DNA of 47,275 nucleotides from Pseudomonadota bacterium (lineage in GTDB: Bacteria > Pseudomonadota > Gammaproteobacteria > Steroidobacterales > Steroidobacteraceae). Shown piece after piece: positions 23,921 to 32,101 of the stretch (position 1 is the stretch's first letter; every line of letters begins with the position of its first letter). The DNA is taken from contig JAJZVF010000002.1 in assembly GCA_021845825.1 (NCBI GenBank), positions 1-47,275 of the forward strand, read 5' to 3'. The notes below the pieces were generated by a model. It searched no databases, was not told where the DNA came from, and worked only from the letters and a program-made list of their open reading frames with translations. Both the position numbers and the translations under genes were made by a program.

Positions 23921-25111
23921 TCAACCGGACCCCTTCAGCCTCGCCGCCACACGCCGGTAGGCCTCGCGAAACGGAATGCCCTCGTCGACGACCAGGCGGT
24001 TGGCTTCCTCGGCGGCGTGGATGGCGGGATCGAGCTCGATCCGGTCCGGACGAAACTTCATGGCATCCAGGGCGGCAGGCAGGATCCCGAGCGTCTGCTG
24101 GGCGAGGTCGATGCTGCGGAATAGCGGGAATTTCAGCAGCTGCAGATCGCGCTGGTAGCCCGAGGGGAGCTTGGCGCAGATCGAGAGCGCCTCGGTCAGG
24201 CATGCTTGTGCCGTAGCGCTGCGGCCCCGGATCAGCTCGAAGACGTCCGGGTTGCGCTTCTGCGGCATGATCGAGGAGCCGGTTGTAAAAGCGTCCGGCA
24301 GCTCGAGAAAGCCGAACTCCCGGGTATAGAACAGCAGCACATCCGCAGCGAGGCGCCCGAGGTCCTGCATCAACAGGACGATTTGGAACAACACGTCCGC
24401 CTCCGCCTTGCCACGGGAGAGTTGCACGGCTGTTACCGGCGCGTGTACCGCCGCGAAACCGAGCTTGTGTCGGGTCGAATCCCGATCGATCGGCAAGCCC
24501 GGCGTGCCGTAGCCGGCCGCCGAGCCCAGCGGGCTGAGGCCCAGGCGGCGCTGAACCAGACGCAACCCTTCGGCATCGTCGCCGAGCTCGGCCGCGAAGC
24601 CGCCCGCCCACAGCGGCACCGAACTCGGCATGGCCTGCTGCATGTGGGTGTAACCCGGCAGAACCGTATCGCGCTCACGTCCGGCCAGCCGATCCAACGC
24701 CTCCGCCACGGCAAGCGCGCCTGTGATCAGCTCTGCGACGGCGTCCCGCAGATAAAGCCGCAGCGCCGTCAGCACCTGATCGTTCCGAGACCGTCCGAGG
24801 TGTACACGGCCGCCGGCCGGCCCGATCCGCTCGGTCAGGCGCCGCTCGAGAGCGGTCTGACCGTCCTCGTCCGCCAACTCTATCCGCCAGAGGCCGCGGG
24901 CATGCTCCTCGCCGAGAGCGGTCAGGCCGGTGCGGACCGCCTCGAGGTCCGCATCGGAGAGGAGCTTTTGATCACGCAGCATCTCGGCGTGCGCAATGGA
25001 TGCCCGTATGTCATACGGCACGAGGCGCTCGTCGAGGGGGAAGTCTTCGCCGGCAGTGTAGGTGAGCACCCGTTCATCCAGCGGCGCGCCCTTGTCCCAG
25101 AGACGAGTCAC
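23921..25111 (-). CDS. argH: argininosuccinate lyase
   Basis: GRSRNDQVLTALRLYLRD, GYTHMQQAMPSS, GSSIMPQKRNPDVFELIRGR; GTG start 2 bp after argB. The longer ORF to 25411 runs into argB. Confidence 0.95.
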   Translation of the reverse strand: MTRLWDKGAPLDERVLTYTAGEDFPLDERLVPYDIRASIAHAEMLRDQKLLSDADLEAVRTGLTALGEEHARGLWRIELADEDGQTALERRLTERIGPAGGRVHLGRSRNDQVLTALRLYLRDAVAELITGALAVAEALDRLAGRERDTVLPGYTHMQQAMPSSVPLWAGGFAAELGDDAEGLRLVQRRLGLSPLGSAAGYGTPGLPIDRDSTRHKLGFAAVHAPVTAVQLSRGKAEADVLFQIVLLMQDLGRLAADVLLFYTREFGFLELPDAFTTGSSIMPQKRNPDVFELIRGRSATAQACLTEALSICAKLPSGYQRDLQLLKFPLFRSIDLAQQTLGILPAALDAMKFRPDRIELDPAIHAAEEANRLVVDEGIPFREAYRRVAARLKGSG

Positions 25112-25113
25112 GA

Positions 25114-26049
25114 TCAAGCCTGCACGCTCTGCTCCGCCAACGTCAGCGCGTCGACATCCTCCACGATCAGCGTACCCGTGCCCTCGTTCGTGAACACTTC
25201 GCCCAGAATCCCCTCCGGAGCAGAGTACGACACCACGTGTACCCGCCGTACTCCGCCGCGGATCGCCGCCTCGATGGCTTTGGCCTTCGGCAGCATGCCG
25301 TCGGCGATACGGCCTGCCTCGCGCAGGCGCGCCAGGCCGCTCAGGTCGGTATAGGAAATGAGCGAGCCCGGATCGCCGAGCGCCGCCAGAATGCCGGGGG
25401 CCCCGGTGCACAGGATCAGCTTCTCGGCGCCGAGCGCTGCGGCGATGGCGGCAGCCACCGTGTCAGCATTGATGTTGAGCAGCGTGCCGCTGTCGTCCGC
25501 GGACAGGGGGCTCACCACCGGCATCAGGCCGTTGTCGAGGAGCTTGCGCAGCACCGTGGGATCGACCCGGTCGATGTCACCGACGAACCCGTAGTCCACC
25601 ACCTCGCCGCTCGACTGCACCGTCACCGGGGGTCGCCTGTGCGCGTGCACCAGACCCGCATCGACGCCGCTCACGCCGACCGCCTCTATGTTGAGCTCGC
25701 GGCAGATGCCGAGGATGGCGGTGTTGATGGTGCCGTTGAGCACCATGGCGGTCACGTCGATCGACTGCCGGTCGGTGACGCGCCTGCCCTCGACCATGCG
25801 CGTGGGGACCCCGAGCGCGTCAGCCAGCTCGGTGAGCTGCGGTCCTCCGCCATGCACGAACACGACGCGCACGCCGAAGTAGTGCAGGATGGCAAGCTGT
25901 TCGATGAGCACGCGTGTGGAGTCCTCGTCGGCGAACACCCCGCCGCCGGCCTTCACCACGAAGATCTTGCCGCGGTACATGCGGATATACGGAGCGGCGT
26001 TCTTGAGCGCGCGGATGGCGAGTGCCTGATCGCCCGAGTGCATGATCAT
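25114..26049 (-). CDS. argB: acetylglutamate (acylglutamate) kinase
   Basis: FVVKAGGGVF, FVHGGGPQLTE, NINADTVAAAIAAALGAEKLILCT; 311 aa, no GNAT domain visible. Confidence 0.93.
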   Translation of the reverse strand: MIMHSGDQALAIRALKNAAPYIRMYRGKIFVVKAGGGVFADEDSTRVLIEQLAILHYFGVRVVFVHGGGPQLTELADALGVPTRMVEGRRVTDRQSIDVTAMVLNGTINTAILGICRELNIEAVGVSGVDAGLVHAHRRPPVTVQSSGEVVDYGFVGDIDRVDPTVLRKLLDNGLMPVVSPLSADDSGTLLNINADTVAAAIAAALGAEKLILCTGAPGILAALGDPGSLISYTDLSGLARLREAGRIADGMLPKAKAIEAAIRGGVRRVHVVSYSAPEGILGEVFTNEGTGTLIVEDVDALTLAEQSVQA

Positions 26050-26055
26050 GTCGAG

Positions 26056-27057
26056 TCAAATCCCCTTCAGTAATCGATACAACACCGCCATCTGCGCCGT
26101 CAGGCGATTGTACGCCTCGAGCTGCACGATGCTGCGGCCGCTGTCGAGCACCTCGTCGGCGACGGCAACGTTGCGCCGCACGGGCAGGCAGTGCATCAGG
26201 CGGCAATCGGCCGCGGCGCGCGCGAACCAGTCGTTGCGCACACACCAGCCGGCGAGGCGGGCACGCAGCGCGGCATCGGCCTCGGCGTCGCCGTAACACG
26301 ACGTCGCGCTCCATTCCTTCGCATAAATGATGTGTGCGCCCGACAACGCCTCGTTCCGCTCGTCCGTCTCGCGCACCGATCCTCCCGACAGCTCGGCCGC
26401 GCGGCGCGCTTTGTCCATGAGCGCTTTCGGCAGCGCGAACCCCTCCGGCCGCAGCACCACGACCTGCATGCCGCGCAGCGCCGCCATGTGCAGTGCCGCC
26501 GCCGGCACCGCGAGCGGCAGCGGGCGCGGGTGGTATGCCCACGACAGGACGAACCGCCCGTCGCGCGGCACGCCCACCTCGTCCATAGTCTTCCAATCGG
26601 CGAGGGCCTGGCAGGGATGATTGACGGCGGACTCGAGGTTGATCAGCGGCTTGTCGACGAGCCCCGCCATGGCGTTGAATCTCGTTTCGGCGAGGTCCGC
26701 CCCGAGATCCTTGCCGTCCGCGAAGGCCCGGATCCCCAGTGCATCGCAGTAGGAGGCGAGCACCGGAATCCCCTCGCGCACGTGCTCAGCCGCCGCCCCG
26801 TCCATGACTGCGCCTCGCTTCGTCTCGAGCTGCCACGTCCCCTGGCCGGGGGTGATGACAAAGGAGGTGCCCCCGAGCCGCGCCATGCCGGCCTGGAAAG
26901 AGGCCAGGGTGCGCAGCGAGGGATTGAGGAAGAGGAGTCCCAGGATCTTGCCGGAGAGTGCGTGCGGTTCCGGTGAGCGCGTGAGCCGCCGTGCCAGCTC
27001 AAGCAGCGCGATGACTTCTTCGCGCCCGAGATCCGCCAGGTCGAGAAAGCGTTTCAT
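26056..27057 (-). CDS. argF': N-acylornithine carbamoyltransferase (AOTCase/SOTCase family)
   Basis: FLNPSLRTLASFQAGMARLGG, GQGTWQLETKRGAVMDG, NHPCQALADW, WAYHPRPLPLAVP, HCLPVRRN; no ordinary-OTC DxxxSMG motif seen. Confidence 0.85.
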   Translation of the reverse strand: MKRFLDLADLGREEVIALLELARRLTRSPEPHALSGKILGLLFLNPSLRTLASFQAGMARLGGTSFVITPGQGTWQLETKRGAVMDGAAAEHVREGIPVLASYCDALGIRAFADGKDLGADLAETRFNAMAGLVDKPLINLESAVNHPCQALADWKTMDEVGVPRDGRFVLSWAYHPRPLPLAVPAAALHMAALRGMQVVVLRPEGFALPKALMDKARRAAELSGGSVRETDERNEALSGAHIIYAKEWSATSCYGDAEADAALRARLAGWCVRNDWFARAAADCRLMHCLPVRRNVAVADEVLDSGRSIVQLEAYNRLTAQMAVLYRLLKGI

Positions 27058-28217
27058 AGGCCGGACAGCGCGTCCCGCAGCAGATCGACATGCTCCTCCT
27101 TCAGGATAAAGGGCGGCAAGAGGCGCACGATGCCCGGATCGCTCGCCCCGCCGACGAGGATGCCGCGCTGCAACAGCTCCGCCTGGATCTGCTTGGCCGG
27201 CCGGCCGGTACGCAGCCCCAGCAGGAAACCTTCGCCTTGGACGGCCGTGACCGGACCGACCATGCAGGTCTTGCGGATGTAAGCCGAGACCCTGCGGACG
27301 TTCTCGAGCAGCCTCTCGGACTCGATTGCCTCGAGCGCCGCGAGCAGGGTAGCGCAGGCCATCGGACCGCCGCCGTAGGTCGTGCCGAGCAACCCCACCT
27401 TCAGGGTGGCCGACACTTTGGCCGATGTCAGCAGCGCCGCCACCGGGAAGCCGTTGCCGAGGGCTTTCGCGGTCGTGAGCATGTCGGGCATCACGCCATA
27501 CAGGGTAGCGGCGAAAGGCGCGCCGCTCCGGCCAAAGCCGCATTGGACCTCGTCGAAAATCAACAGGGCGCCGACCTGCTCGCAGCGTCGGCGCAACGCC
27601 GCGAGGTAGCCGGCGCCGAGGTCCACCGCCCCTGCGAGACCTTGCACCGGCTCGACGATCACCGCCGCCGTGTGCTCGGTCACCCGGGCGTCGATGGCCG
27701 CGAGATCCCCCCGCGGCATGAAACTGACATCGAAGGGCTTGCGCGGAAAGCCGTACCACGCCTCGGCGCCCCAGGTGACCGCCGCGGCGCCCGCAGTGCG
27801 TCCGTGGAATGCGCCTTCGACGGCTGCAACGTGCGGGCGTGAAGTCATGCGCAACGCCAGGCGCAGCGCGTTCTCGTTGGCCTCGGCGCCGCTGCTCACC
27901 AGGAATACGCTGGCGAAATCCAGCCCGGAGAAATCGAGCAGTCGCCGCGCCGCGCGCGCACGGATCTGCATCGGCAGGGCGTTGGTCTGGAACTGGCATG
28001 CGCGCGCCTGCGCGATGAGGGCCTCCGTCCAGCCGCGGTGGCCGTAGCCGAGCGCCGCCACGGCATGGCCACCATACAGATCGAGCACGCGCTCGCCGCG
28101 GGGCCCCATCAGCCAGACGCCCTCGGCAGAGGCGACCTCGAATGGATATTGTGCGTAGACCGGCGCGAGGCCGTCGGACGGTGGCTCGAAGGGCGCCGGG
28201 AGCGCTGTGGCGTTCAT
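27054..28217 (-). CDS. argD: acetylornithine (acylornithine) aminotransferase
   Basis: VWLMGPRGERVLDLYGGHAVAALGYGH, FVSSGAEANENALRLA-like, IFDEVQCGFGRSG; ATGA overlap with argF'. Confidence 0.93.
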   Translation of the reverse strand: MNATALPAPFEPPSDGLAPVYAQYPFEVASAEGVWLMGPRGERVLDLYGGHAVAALGYGHRGWTEALIAQARACQFQTNALPMQIRARAARRLLDFSGLDFASVFLVSSGAEANENALRLALRMTSRPHVAAVEGAFHGRTAGAAAVTWGAEAWYGFPRKPFDVSFMPRGDLAAIDARVTEHTAAVIVEPVQGLAGAVDLGAGYLAALRRRCEQVGALLIFDEVQCGFGRSGAPFAATLYGVMPDMLTTAKALGNGFPVAALLTSAKVSATLKVGLLGTTYGGGPMACATLLAALEAIESERLLENVRRVSAYIRKTCMVGPVTAVQGEGFLLGLRTGRPAKQIQAELLQRGILVGGASDPGIVRLLPPFILKEEHVDLLRDALSGL

Positions 28218-28240
28218 GATATCTCGCTGTTGGGGACTGT

Positions 28241-29350
28241 TCAGGTCCAACCCGGGGCGGGCGCCGTGAGACCCTCGGTTTCGGGCCATCCCAGCATCCG
28301 GTTCATCCACTGCACGGCACCGCCGGCCGCGCCCTTGTTCAGGTTGTCGATGGCGCACATCACTGCCACCGTGCGACCGTCGGATGCAGCGGACAAATGC
28401 GCATAATTGGTGGCGGCAACGTCCTTTACCCTGGGCGCGGTGGTAGTAACCCGCACGAACGGCGAGCGGGCGTAGAACTCGCGCAAGGCGGCCAACACTC
28501 CCTCCGTGTCGAGCGGACTCGCCAGCTGCGCCTGCACGGTCACGTGAATGCCCCGTGCAAACGGCCCCGAGTGGGGCACGAACGCGAACTCGGCCTCCAC
28601 ACCGCTCGCCGCCCGCGCGCAGGCCGTGATCTCGGGCGCGTGCCGGTGCGACAACACGTTGTAGGCGTACAGATCGCTGTGCCGCAGCGGATGATGGGTG
28701 CCGGAGACCGGTTTGCGGCCCGAGCCGGTGCTGCCGGTGACACCGGCGACAAAGAGCGCGGGCGCGGTCAGCCCCAGCGAGAGCAGCGGCACGCTCGCCA
28801 GCAGCGTCGCAGTCGAAAAGCAACCTGGATGGGCGATGTGCGCGGTGTCGGGCTTCGCCAGGTGCTCCGGCACCGCGCAGGTGAATTCCTGCAGGCGCGC
28901 CGGGGCTCCGTGGGGATGCTTGTAGACCGCCTCGTAGTCCGCCGCGCGGCGGAAGCGGAAATCGGCCGAGATATCGACGACGCGCGGGCGCGTGCCGGCG
29001 CTCGCGGCCGCCGTCAGCAGCGAATCGATGAGTTGCGCGGATACGCCGTGCGGTGCGGCCGAGAACACCGCACACTGCGGAGCGCGCATGAGAAATTCGC
29101 GGACCTCGGTCTGCGGCCTGAAGCATGTGTCGCCGTAGACGGCCGCCAGGTGTGGGAATGCGTCGGCGAGCCTCTCGCCCGGCTGGCTGTCCGACATCAC
29201 CGCGGCCAGCGTCAGGCGCGGATGGGCCGCGATCAGACGGAGCAACTCCCCGGCCACGTAGCCGGTACCGCCGAGCACGACCGCCGGAATGGTGCTGCGC
29301 GGGTCCGCCCGTGCGCCGGCGAACGAATCCGCCCCCGGCGACAGGGTCAT
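28241..29350 (-). CDS. argC: N-acetyl(acyl)-gamma-glutamyl-phosphate reductase
   Basis: VVLGGTGYVAGELLRLIAAHP, AHPGCFSTATLLASVPL (catalytic Cys), ATNYAHLS...NLNKGAAGGAVQWMN. Confidence 0.92.
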   Translation of the reverse strand: MTLSPGADSFAGARADPRSTIPAVVLGGTGYVAGELLRLIAAHPRLTLAAVMSDSQPGERLADAFPHLAAVYGDTCFRPQTEVREFLMRAPQCAVFSAAPHGVSAQLIDSLLTAAASAGTRPRVVDISADFRFRRAADYEAVYKHPHGAPARLQEFTCAVPEHLAKPDTAHIAHPGCFSTATLLASVPLLSLGLTAPALFVAGVTGSTGSGRKPVSGTHHPLRHSDLYAYNVLSHRHAPEITACARAASGVEAEFAFVPHSGPFARGIHVTVQAQLASPLDTEGVLAALREFYARSPFVRVTTTAPRVKDVAATNYAHLSAASDGRTVAVMCAIDNLNKGAAGGAVQWMNRMLGWPETEGLTAPAPGWT

Positions 29351-30423
29351 TGCGCCGCTCCTCGCGGCAGACCAACGGCCTCCATCACGCGGTCGCCGAG
29401 CGCCGCGCCGTTGCCGATGGCGTTGAATGCGGCGACGCCCAGTTGGCTGGTGATCAGGTCTATCCCCACCTGATTGTCGGTGGCGGGCCCCGTGACGGCG
29501 CAGGGCTCGATACCGAAGCGCTCGCGCAGGAGCTTCACGCCGCCCCAGGCCGCGACCGGATCGTTGGCCGAGAGGACCACGCCGGTGAGCGCAGAGCGAA
29601 TGTCGGGGCACTCGAGGATGGCGTCTACACCATAGGTGCCGAGAATGCCGTCGCCGAGCTCGAACACGATCGCGTCCGGCTTGCCGGCCGAGAGCTCGGT
29701 CAGCATGGCGCGCGTCAGCGCCGGACCATTGTGCCGCGTGGTGGTGACCACACCGAAGTCGGTGAAGATCGCCGAGCGGCGCGCGCCTGCGTCCTCCATG
29801 GCGAGAATGTCGCGCCGCAGGGAGACTCCCGTCGCCTTGAATGCGTCGATGGTGAGCCCACGGTGGCGCATGCGGCTGATCATCGCGCAGGCGGCCGCGG
29901 TCTTGCCCGCCTCCATACACGTGCCGGCGAGCGCCACCACCGGCACTTGCCTCACGTCGAGTGCGCCGGCCTGGTCGAGCTGGCGCAGGCCCACCCGGGC
30001 CGGCACCCCGATACGCTCGCCGAGGTACGGAAAATGCAGCGCCACGCCGAGCACGCGGCAGTCGAACGGCTGACCCTTTTCCGGATTCACCGAGTCGCAC
30101 ACTCCGAGCACACCGCCGATGTTGAGCATCTGGATCACGTCGCCCGGCTTGACCGAGGCGGGTATGTGACCGGAGTAGCCGAACAGCGCCTTGCGGTGGC
30201 CGAGCGCGCCGACCACGATGTCGCCCTTGCCGACCTTGGCCATGCGGCCGCTGGTGAGCTCCAGAGTGTTGTAGGTGGACTTGTTGGTCAGTACTTCGAC
30301 CACGATCACCACGCCTTCCTCGGCGGGGATGTCCGGGGAGATGCGCACTTCGCGCGACAGGCGGCACGCCTGAGCCACGGAGGCGATCTTGTCGACGACG
30401 ACGTTTCTCATGCCATGGGTCAT
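29347..30423 (-). CDS. uncharacterised P-loop protein (BioD/DUF1611-like C-terminal domain), arginine-operon member
   Basis: AGTCMEAGKTAAACAMI P-loop (GTxxxxGKT spacing as in BioD GTDTxVGKT), AFKATGVSLRRD, DAIVFELGDGILG; 4 bp ATGA overlaps with argG upstream and argC downstream. Confidence 0.8.
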   Translation of the reverse strand: MTHGMRNVVVDKIASVAQACRLSREVRISPDIPAEEGVVIVVEVLTNKSTYNTLELTSGRMAKVGKGDIVVGALGHRKALFGYSGHIPASVKPGDVIQMLNIGGVLGVCDSVNPEKGQPFDCRVLGVALHFPYLGERIGVPARVGLRQLDQAGALDVRQVPVVALAGTCMEAGKTAAACAMISRMRHRGLTIDAFKATGVSLRRDILAMEDAGARRSAIFTDFGVVTTTRHNGPALTRAMLTELSAGKPDAIVFELGDGILGTYGVDAILECPDIRSALTGVVLSANDPVAAWGGVKLLRERFGIEPCAVTGPATDNQVGIDLITSQLGVAAFNAIGNGAALGDRVMEAVGLPRGAAQ

Positions 30424-31646
30424 TTCGAGGTCTCGCCGGCGCGCCGGTGGAACACGCCCGTCAGGGCGACGATCTTGGAGAACCCCAGGGCGTCCTGCGG
30501 CGTCCACTCGCCGGCCGCCTCCCCGTACACCCCCCTGGAGGCGGCCATGAGCGAGTGGGGCGAATCCACGCCCTCGACGAACAGGTTCCCCGGGCGGAAC
30601 GACACCCGAACCTCGCCCGTGACACGCGCCTGGGAAGACTCGAGGAGCGATTCGATGTCGCGGCAGACCGGATCGAGCAGCTGGCCCTCGTGCACCAGAT
30701 CGCCGTAGGGCTGTGCCACCAGCTCTTTGATGCGCTGCTGGCGGCCGGTGAGCACGAGCTTTTCCAGCTCCCGGTGCGCGGTGAGCAGCACTTCCGCAGC
30801 CGGCGCCTCGAAGGCCACCCGACCTTTGGTGCCGATGATGGTATCGCCAAGATGGATGCCGCGTCCGATGCCGAAGGGCGCGGCCAGCGCCTCCAGCGCC
30901 TCGATCAGCGCCACTGGGGAAAGCGGGCGGCCGTCGAGGCCGCTCGGCCGGCCGTGCTCGAACCGGATGAGGTGCGTTTCGGGGGCACGAGGCTTCGTAA
31001 ACGCATGCTTGGTGAGCACCCACGCGTGCTCGGGAATGCTGCCGGAGGAGCCGAGCGTCTCCTTGCCGCCGATGGTCACGCCCCACAGCCCACGGTTGAC
31101 CGAGTAGGCCGCCCCATACGGCGGCACGGGTAGGCCGCGCTCCTCGAGGTATTGAAGCTCTTCCTGGCGTTTGAACGCCCGATCGCGCACCGGGGCCAGA
31201 ACCTCGAGCTCGGGGGCGAGCGTGCGCATCGCAACCTCGAAACGCACCTGGTCGTTGCCCGCAGCGGTGCAGCCATGGGCAATCATGCTGGTGCCGAGCT
31301 TGCGCGCCATGTGCGCAATGGTCTGCGCCTGCATGACGCGCTCGGCGCCGACGCACAGCGGATAGAGCTGGCCGCGTCTGACGTTGCCCATGATGAGGAA
31401 ACGCAGCACCTGCTCGAAGTAATCGGCGCGCGCATCGACTTGGTGGTGCTCGATTGCTCCAAGGGCCCGGGCGCGCTCGCCGAGCGTGCGCGCGGCCGTC
31501 TCGTCTATGCCGCCGGTATCGACGGTGACGGTGATGATCGGACGGCCATAGGTGTCCTTCAACCAAGGCACGAGGAAGGAGGTGTCGAGGCCGCCGGAAT
31601 AGGCAAGAACGATGGGCTGCCCGCCCTGGGATGCGGATGTCGGCAT
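30420..31646 (-). CDS. argG: argininosuccinate synthase
   Basis: IVLAYSGGLDTSFLVPWLKD, AHGCTAAGNDQVRFE; resembles the Xanthomonas-type ArgG rather than E. coli ArgG. Confidence 0.95.
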   Translation of the reverse strand: MPTSASQGGQPIVLAYSGGLDTSFLVPWLKDTYGRPIITVTVDTGGIDETAARTLGERARALGAIEHHQVDARADYFEQVLRFLIMGNVRRGQLYPLCVGAERVMQAQTIAHMARKLGTSMIAHGCTAAGNDQVRFEVAMRTLAPELEVLAPVRDRAFKRQEELQYLEERGLPVPPYGAAYSVNRGLWGVTIGGKETLGSSGSIPEHAWVLTKHAFTKPRAPETHLIRFEHGRPSGLDGRPLSPVALIEALEALAAPFGIGRGIHLGDTIIGTKGRVAFEAPAAEVLLTAHRELEKLVLTGRQQRIKELVAQPYGDLVHEGQLLDPVCRDIESLLESSQARVTGEVRVSFRPGNLFVEGVDSPHSLMAASRGVYGEAAGEWTPQDALGFSKIVALTGVFHRRAGETSK

Positions 31647-31654
31647 GCGTCGCC

Positions 31655-32101
31655 TTAAATTCGAAAAACGGTCTGCAGCCGCGCGATGAGCTCGTCCTGC
31701 GCGCGGCCGGTGGCGGTGGCAATGAAAATGGTGTCGTCCCCGGAGATGGTGCCGGCGACCTCCGACCATTCGGCCCGGTCGATGGCCACCGCGACGCTCT
31801 GCGCGGCGCCGATGGTCGTCTTCAGCACGGTGAGCGAAGGTCCGGCGCGCTTCAGTCCACGCACGAACTGGGCCAGCATGCCGAAATCGCCTTGGGTGCG
31901 TGAGACCTCGTCGGGTGGCAGCACATAGCGACCGCTCGCCTTGAGCACCCCGAGGTCGCGCAAATCGCGGCTGACGGACGACTGGGTCACGTCGTAGCCT
32001 TCGGCACGCAACAGATGAACCAAGTCCTCCTGCCGGTGGACCACACCCTCGCGCAGGATGCGCACGACGGCTTGGCGGCGTTCGAGCTGCTCGGCGTCCA
32101 C
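31655..32101 (-). CDS. argR: arginine repressor
   Basis: DVTQSSVSRDLRDLGVLK HTH; C-terminal AVAIDRAEWSEVAGTISGDDTIFIATATGRAQDELIARL. Confidence 0.95.
   Translation of the reverse strand: MDAEQLERRQAVVRILREGVVHRQEDLVHLLRAEGYDVTQSSVSRDLRDLGVLKASGRYVLPPDEVSRTQGDFGMLAQFVRGLKRAGPSLTVLKTTIGAAQSVAVAIDRAEWSEVAGTISGDDTIFIATATGRAQDELIARLQTVFRI

Follow-up and report, generated by a model that had tools for sequence, protein, structure and literature searches.

A conserved P-loop protein in the arginine operon of Steroidobacterales as a candidate N-acylglutamate synthase

Several unrelated enzymes take the first step of arginine biosynthesis, and genes for this step are repeatedly missing from annotated pathways. 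Among proteins that act on glutamate, DgcN is said to be a D-glutamate N-acetyltransferase. In Bacteroidetes, ArgA2 (BT3761) is a GNAT-type N-succinylglutamate synthase (PMC9026213, PMC7311316), and NAGS-K of Xanthomonas is a fusion of ArgA and ArgB (PMC1865377). Most of the order Steroidobacterales is without every recognized form of the step that we searched for, and has instead one conserved, unnamed P-loop protein, here called X. The window, that is, the whole stretch of DNA that was analyzed (47,275 nucleotides), carries X within its arginine operon. On comparative evidence only, we consider it probable that X takes the first step of the pathway and N-acylates L-glutamate, most likely with a succinyl group.

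Gene X and its operon

X is the third gene of an eight-gene operon, argR-argG-X-argC-argD-argF'-argB-argH (Table 1). Of its neighbours, ArgC, ArgB, ArgH, and the carbamoyltransferase score above their NCBIfam cut-offs. The 358-residue open reading frame that a first-pass annotation had placed between argG and argC is real and lies on the minus strand, which that annotation did not name. The ATGA overlaps it described at the X/argG and X/argC junctions were both found in the sequence, and we agree with it that argA, argJ, and argE are missing from the operon. As the overlap with argC is retained in 81 of 144 loci, it is not a product of chance. A chance reading frame is likewise ruled out by orthologues of X across most of the order, at 57–96% identity. 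The order of the eight genes is almost invariant in a separate collection of 80 loci and in over 30 additional loci drawn from across the order, and nearly so across more than 30 genera. X counts as one of the operon's most conserved genes, about level with ArgG and above ArgC or ArgD (59–76% to the window), where one average for X took in three paralogue loci.

Table 1. Features of the arginine operon in the window, and related loci elsewhere (L numbers denote loci outside the window)
Feature	Position	Strand	Remarks
argR, arginine repressor	31655..32101	minus	first gene of the operon; Pfam
argG, argininosuccinate synthase	30420..31646	minus	4-bp ATGA overlap with X; above the TIGR00032 cut-off
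X, 358 aa	29347..30423	minus	predicted N-acyl(succinyl)glutamate synthase, from genome comparison
P-loop GTCMEAGKT, X residues 167-175	29899..29925	minus	G167, G173, K174, T175 invariant in X and distant relatives
Lys196 of X	29836..29838	minus	aligns with Lys37, second lysine in the BioD active site
Glu255 of X, FELGDG motif	29659..29661	minus	family-invariant acidic residue
argC, N-acylglutamyl-phosphate reductase	28241..29350	minus	4-bp ATGA overlap with X; NCBIfam
argD, acylornithine aminotransferase (class-III)	27054..28244	minus	Pfam
argF', acylornithine carbamoyltransferase	26056..27057	minus	NCBIfam match N-acetylornithine-type
argB, N-acylglutamate kinase	25114..26049	minus	without C-terminal acetyltransferase domain; NCBIfam
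argH, argininosuccinate lyase	23921..25117	minus	last gene of the operon; NCBIfam
Cluster with type 1 paralogue of X	L159:5827-8661, L160:8402-11246, L207, L208, L209, L217
Type 2 paralogue of X	L161, L162, L218, L219, L343, L345
Cluster with a relative of X, Priestia megaterium plasmid	L344:1805-10493		NZ_CP085446.1
172-aa GNAT gene of G023	L152:2978-3493

Distribution of X and the succinyl signature

Orthologues of X occur in about 155 of the 196 genomes of the order; 164 genomes gave a match of any kind, 9 of them with weak or distant paralogue matches only. The X records that carry names come from MAGs; most bear the label Proteobacteria or Gammaproteobacteria, and some are assigned to Steroidobacteraceae or Nevskiaceae. 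The X matches of genomes G074, G117, G119, and G153 each contain one in-frame stop codon, a TAG common to two genomes of the same genus among them; these stops could be mis-set ends, assembly errors, or decay.

The ArgA acetyltransferase domain (PF04768) is found in 22 of the 196 genomes, none of which has an X orthologue, a mutual exclusion with a Fisher p of 3.5e-18 when shared ancestry is ignored. Within the order it is the whole operon that switches, so this exclusion amounts to one correlated change per switch and not to an independent test of X alone. Four X-less genomes of the order have a Xanthomonas-type operon, argF'-argG-argE-argAB-argC, in which argE and argAB fill the stretch between argG and argC, the place of X. 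A search of 78 genomes of the order for ArgJ returned none, and control genomes gave matches. In the 90.5%-complete genome from which the window comes, the whole-genome search found neither ArgJ nor an ArgA acetyltransferase domain, and a single M20 enzyme, DapE; a complete argA or argJ together with argE elsewhere in the genome, which the first-pass annotation had set against its own proposal, was thus not found in this assembly among the enzyme forms searched for. The results for ArgJ and the ArgA domain favor X as the only step-1 candidate where the rest of the pathway is present, with a short GNAT synthase of the ArgA2 kind, encoded elsewhere, as a possible competitor. Eight genomes with neither X nor the ArgA domain were checked: two are incomplete and have a stand-alone ArgB, and six (G010, G014, G043, G125, G166, and G190) are also without an above-cut-off ArgB and are likely arginine auxotrophs or assembly gaps.

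In the X-containing genomes, the strong match to TIGR01890 spans the kinase part only and is ArgB, and weak matches of unrelated GNATs to the end of the same model are seen in some of them. These weak matches would suit a reading in which X regulates or chaperones ArgB/ArgC in a nucleotide-dependent way and the acylation is left to an unrecognized short GNAT elsewhere; SIMIBI P-loop proteins do include regulators and metallochaperones, and the fold of X matches FtsY/Ffh and HypB. One such GNAT gene lies directly downstream of argH in G023. However, it is absent from all other loci searched, by which we reject it as a true ArgA, and in four complete X-containing genomes (G011, G038, G049, and G074) no match to TIGR01890 was found beyond ArgB. 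X is, moreover, no less conserved than the operon's enzymes, and it retains acidic residues and a lysine that look catalytic. We consider the regulator reading improbable.

The carbamoyltransferase of the operon bears on the acyl group. Acetylornithine carbamoyltransferases carry Glu92, Asn185, and Lys302, and succinylornithine carbamoyltransferases carry A, S, P, V, or Q at position 92, P at 185, and V, I, or E at 302 (PMC4581275). We fixed the corresponding positions of ArgF' by alignment to crystal structures, position-92 mutants included. The ArgF' of the window has Ala90, Pro181, and Ala298 at reference positions 92, 185, and 302, respectively, and so has succinylornithine-type residues. 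At X-containing loci, Ala at 92 and Pro at 185 are found in 99 of 99 ArgF' proteins, and position 302 is A or V in 98 of 99 with a gap in the remaining one; Ala at this position is outside the published succinyl set, yet it is not the acetyl-type Lys. All four carbamoyltransferases from X-less loci show the Glu, Asn, Lys signature. From these residues, the predicted substrate of the window's ArgF' is succinylornithine, and the arginine pathway appears to be succinylated and not acetylated, a point missed in the earlier annotation. An ArgE elsewhere in the genome is rejected for the 90.5%-complete genome of the window and for the 100%-complete G038, in both of which the single M20 enzyme is DapE, the succinyl-diaminopimelate desuccinylase. 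The absence of ArgE would be explained if the succinyl group were also removed by DapE.

Transfer of X to another class

Among 399 genomes of the phylum, a single orthologue lies outside the order, in G463, a genome of another class, where it is the only one among 151 genomes of G463's own order. Its cluster reads argR-X-argC-argB, without argG, argD, argF', or argH. In a tree, the X of G463 nests inside the family of the window, and it was therefore acquired horizontally. ArgJ was not found in G463, which is rated 100% complete, and 16 of the 19 relatives searched have ArgJ. No second argB or argC was found in the part of the G463 genome covered, about half of it. The carbamoyltransferase of G463 is of the ordinary ornithine type, and no ArgE was recognized there above cut-off. 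G463 too needs its deacylase explained, and this counts against our main reading. It is also the only clearly independent event bearing on the function of X, and because the genes transferred together with X act in steps 2 and 3, it points to step 1 and not to a deacylase.

The same data bear on two further readings. In the first, X is a functional analogue of ArgJ that transfers acyl to glutamate from acylcitrulline (or acylornithine), so covering both the first step and deacylation. X-containing genomes without ArgA or ArgJ and, where checked, without ArgE are what this reading expects, as are the X-less relatives with both argE and argAB in the place of X and a G463 that has X with neither ArgJ nor an above-cut-off ArgE. 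Against it, a transacylase that works without ATP would not be expected to have a P-loop with the catalytic residues of BioD, the donor would have to differ between the order (acylcitrulline) and G463 (acylornithine), and desuccinylation is plausibly covered by DapE. It seems to us about as unlikely as a regulatory role. In the second reading, X replaces ArgE as the deacylase, or as an essential part of it, and frees citrulline from acylcitrulline. X does adjoin argG, as argE does in the X-less operons, and no ArgE was found in the two X-containing genomes checked. However, X moved into G463 with argC and argB and without argG or argF', which points to the early steps, DapE remains available for desuccinylation, and no P-loop NTPase fold is known to be an amidase. 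We rate this second reading as very unlikely, below the other two. Of the roles that the first-pass annotation had offered, that of an N-acylglutamate synthase is well supported, by the complementarity with ArgA, the absence of ArgJ, and the transfer to G463 with argR, argC, and argB; those of deacylase partner and regulator are less likely.

Fold, reaction and known systems

X consists of a β-rich N-terminal region (residues 1–145), which contains KGDIVVGALGHRKALFGYSGHIP, and a BioD-like SIMIBI P-loop domain (146–358). The motifs reported earlier, GTCMEAGKT (167–175), AFKATG (194–199), and FELGDGILG (254–262), are all present. AlphaFold models the 146–358 domain mostly with confidence, and a Foldseek search with it returned FtsY, Ffh, and BioD in the 1e-5 range of E, with HypB also matched; the model thus predicts a SIMIBI P-loop fold for the nucleotide-binding domain. 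The N-terminal region was modelled with low confidence twice, and its fold search against the PDB gave no match. With a family-wide profile, the best solved relative is BioD (E 0.0099), with Lys196 aligned to Lys37, and with an X-only profile the PDB sequence search gave no match. The BioD-like P-loop GxxxxGKT and second lysine are present, K174, T175, and K196 being invariant. X and its distant relatives all have the GK-T of the P-loop, K196, D205, D211, D222, and E255; in a larger set D211 is nearly invariant and the other P-loop, K196, and acidic residues remain invariant. The suggestion of BioD-type chemistry is thus backed by both profile and fold matches. Membership of DUF1611, also raised earlier, did not hold up: X scores 15.3 bits against PF07755 (E 0.014), where the Pfam cut-off is 25, and only 4 of 40 orthologues reach E < 0.01, the best at 3.2e-4. 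MobB is among the weak Pfam matches, at 13 bits. X exceeds the cut-off of no Pfam family and matches no NCBIfam model, including the BioD equivalog TIGR00347, so that plain membership of either DUF1611 or BioD is ruled out by the model cut-offs. Searches of X for a GNAT or NAT match (ArgA or NAGS-K), for PF01960 (ArgJ), and against PHROGs also gave none.

In the reaction that we favor, X would N-acylate L-glutamate, the acyl group most likely being succinyl, and ArgB, ArgC, and ArgD would then carry N-succinyl intermediates to N-succinylornithine. ArgF' would carbamoylate this to N-succinylcitrulline, and DapE, as a housekeeping desuccinylase, would probably strip off the succinyl group ahead of the ArgG and ArgH steps. 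We infer the reaction of X, its own acyl group, and the second job of DapE. BioD uses ATP to activate a carboxylate for attack by an amine, which suggests that X may be an ATP-dependent succinate-glutamate ligase. The P-loop would bind ATP-Mg, the succinate carboxylate would be converted to an acyl phosphate, and the glutamate amine would attack it. Given the synthase function, analogy with BioD leads us to lean slightly toward this ATP mechanism. The main alternative is a CoA-dependent one, with succinyl-CoA as donor and the P-loop holding the CoA phosphates. DgcN, a DUF1611 protein, reportedly uses acetyl-CoA, which, should X be a true relative of DgcN, speaks against the ATP mechanism.

Two types of distant paralogue occur in the order, with 24–29% identity to X. 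Type 1 forms a conserved cluster of three genes together with a flavin-reductase-like protein and a glutamate carboxypeptidase-like M20 enzyme. Type 2 adjoins ABC transporter or membrane-fusion genes, sometimes with an α/β hydrolase, and is annotated on plasmids as DUF1611 or dethiobiotin synthase. A further relative, at about 27% identity, is found on a Priestia megaterium plasmid, in a cluster with PEP-mutase-like, ThDP, two ATP-grasp, carbamoyltransferase, and M20 genes, apparently a phosphonate natural-product cluster. The repeated pairing of X relatives with M20 deacylases fits acyl protecting-group chemistry, though this is only suggestive. We put forward, tentatively and as less likely than not even to ourselves, that X is the first of a new class of enzymes for glutamate N-acylation, a SIMIBI P-loop ATP-dependent succinate-glutamate ligase with acyl-phosphate chemistry like that of BioD, which opens arginine biosynthesis in most of the order and belongs to a wider P-loop family whose N-acyl protecting groups are later taken off by M20 deacylases. 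The non-subscription literature searched does not mention any N-acylglutamate synthase of the P-loop type. If the assignment of X is true, glutamate N-acylation would gain a new fold and probably a chemistry driven by ATP, succinylated arginine synthesis would reach beyond Bacteroidetes into Gammaproteobacteria, a false predicted auxotrophy of X-containing genomes would be explained, and the wider BioD/DUF1611-like family would have a first functional handle.

Compared with known systems, X is like BioD and MobB in its P-loop GTxxxxGKT, its second lysine (Lys37/Lys196), and the fold match of its C-terminal domain. It differs in its extra 145-residue N-terminal region and its operon, structural identity is 13–15%, and X falls short of the curated BioD and MobB models. 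With DUF1611/DgcN it shares a weak PF07755 match at the start of the P-loop and distant relatives annotated as DUF1611, and glutamate N-acylation would be common to both; however, X lies in an anabolic arginine operon and presumably acts on L- rather than D-glutamate. ArgJ, the ornithine acetyltransferase, is an ATP-free transacylase of unrelated fold and is absent from the order of the window, and G463, unlike its relatives, lacks ArgJ and has X instead. The Xanthomonas NAGS-K type takes step 1 in members of the order without X; in contrast to X, it belongs to an acetyl pathway and has its GNAT domain fused to the kinase, and here the two never share a genome. ArgA2 has a GNAT fold and X a P-loop fold, and the proteins are unrelated, yet X is predicted to catalyze the reaction of ArgA2, and both would serve a succinylated pathway to arginine that includes a succinylornithine carbamoyltransferase.
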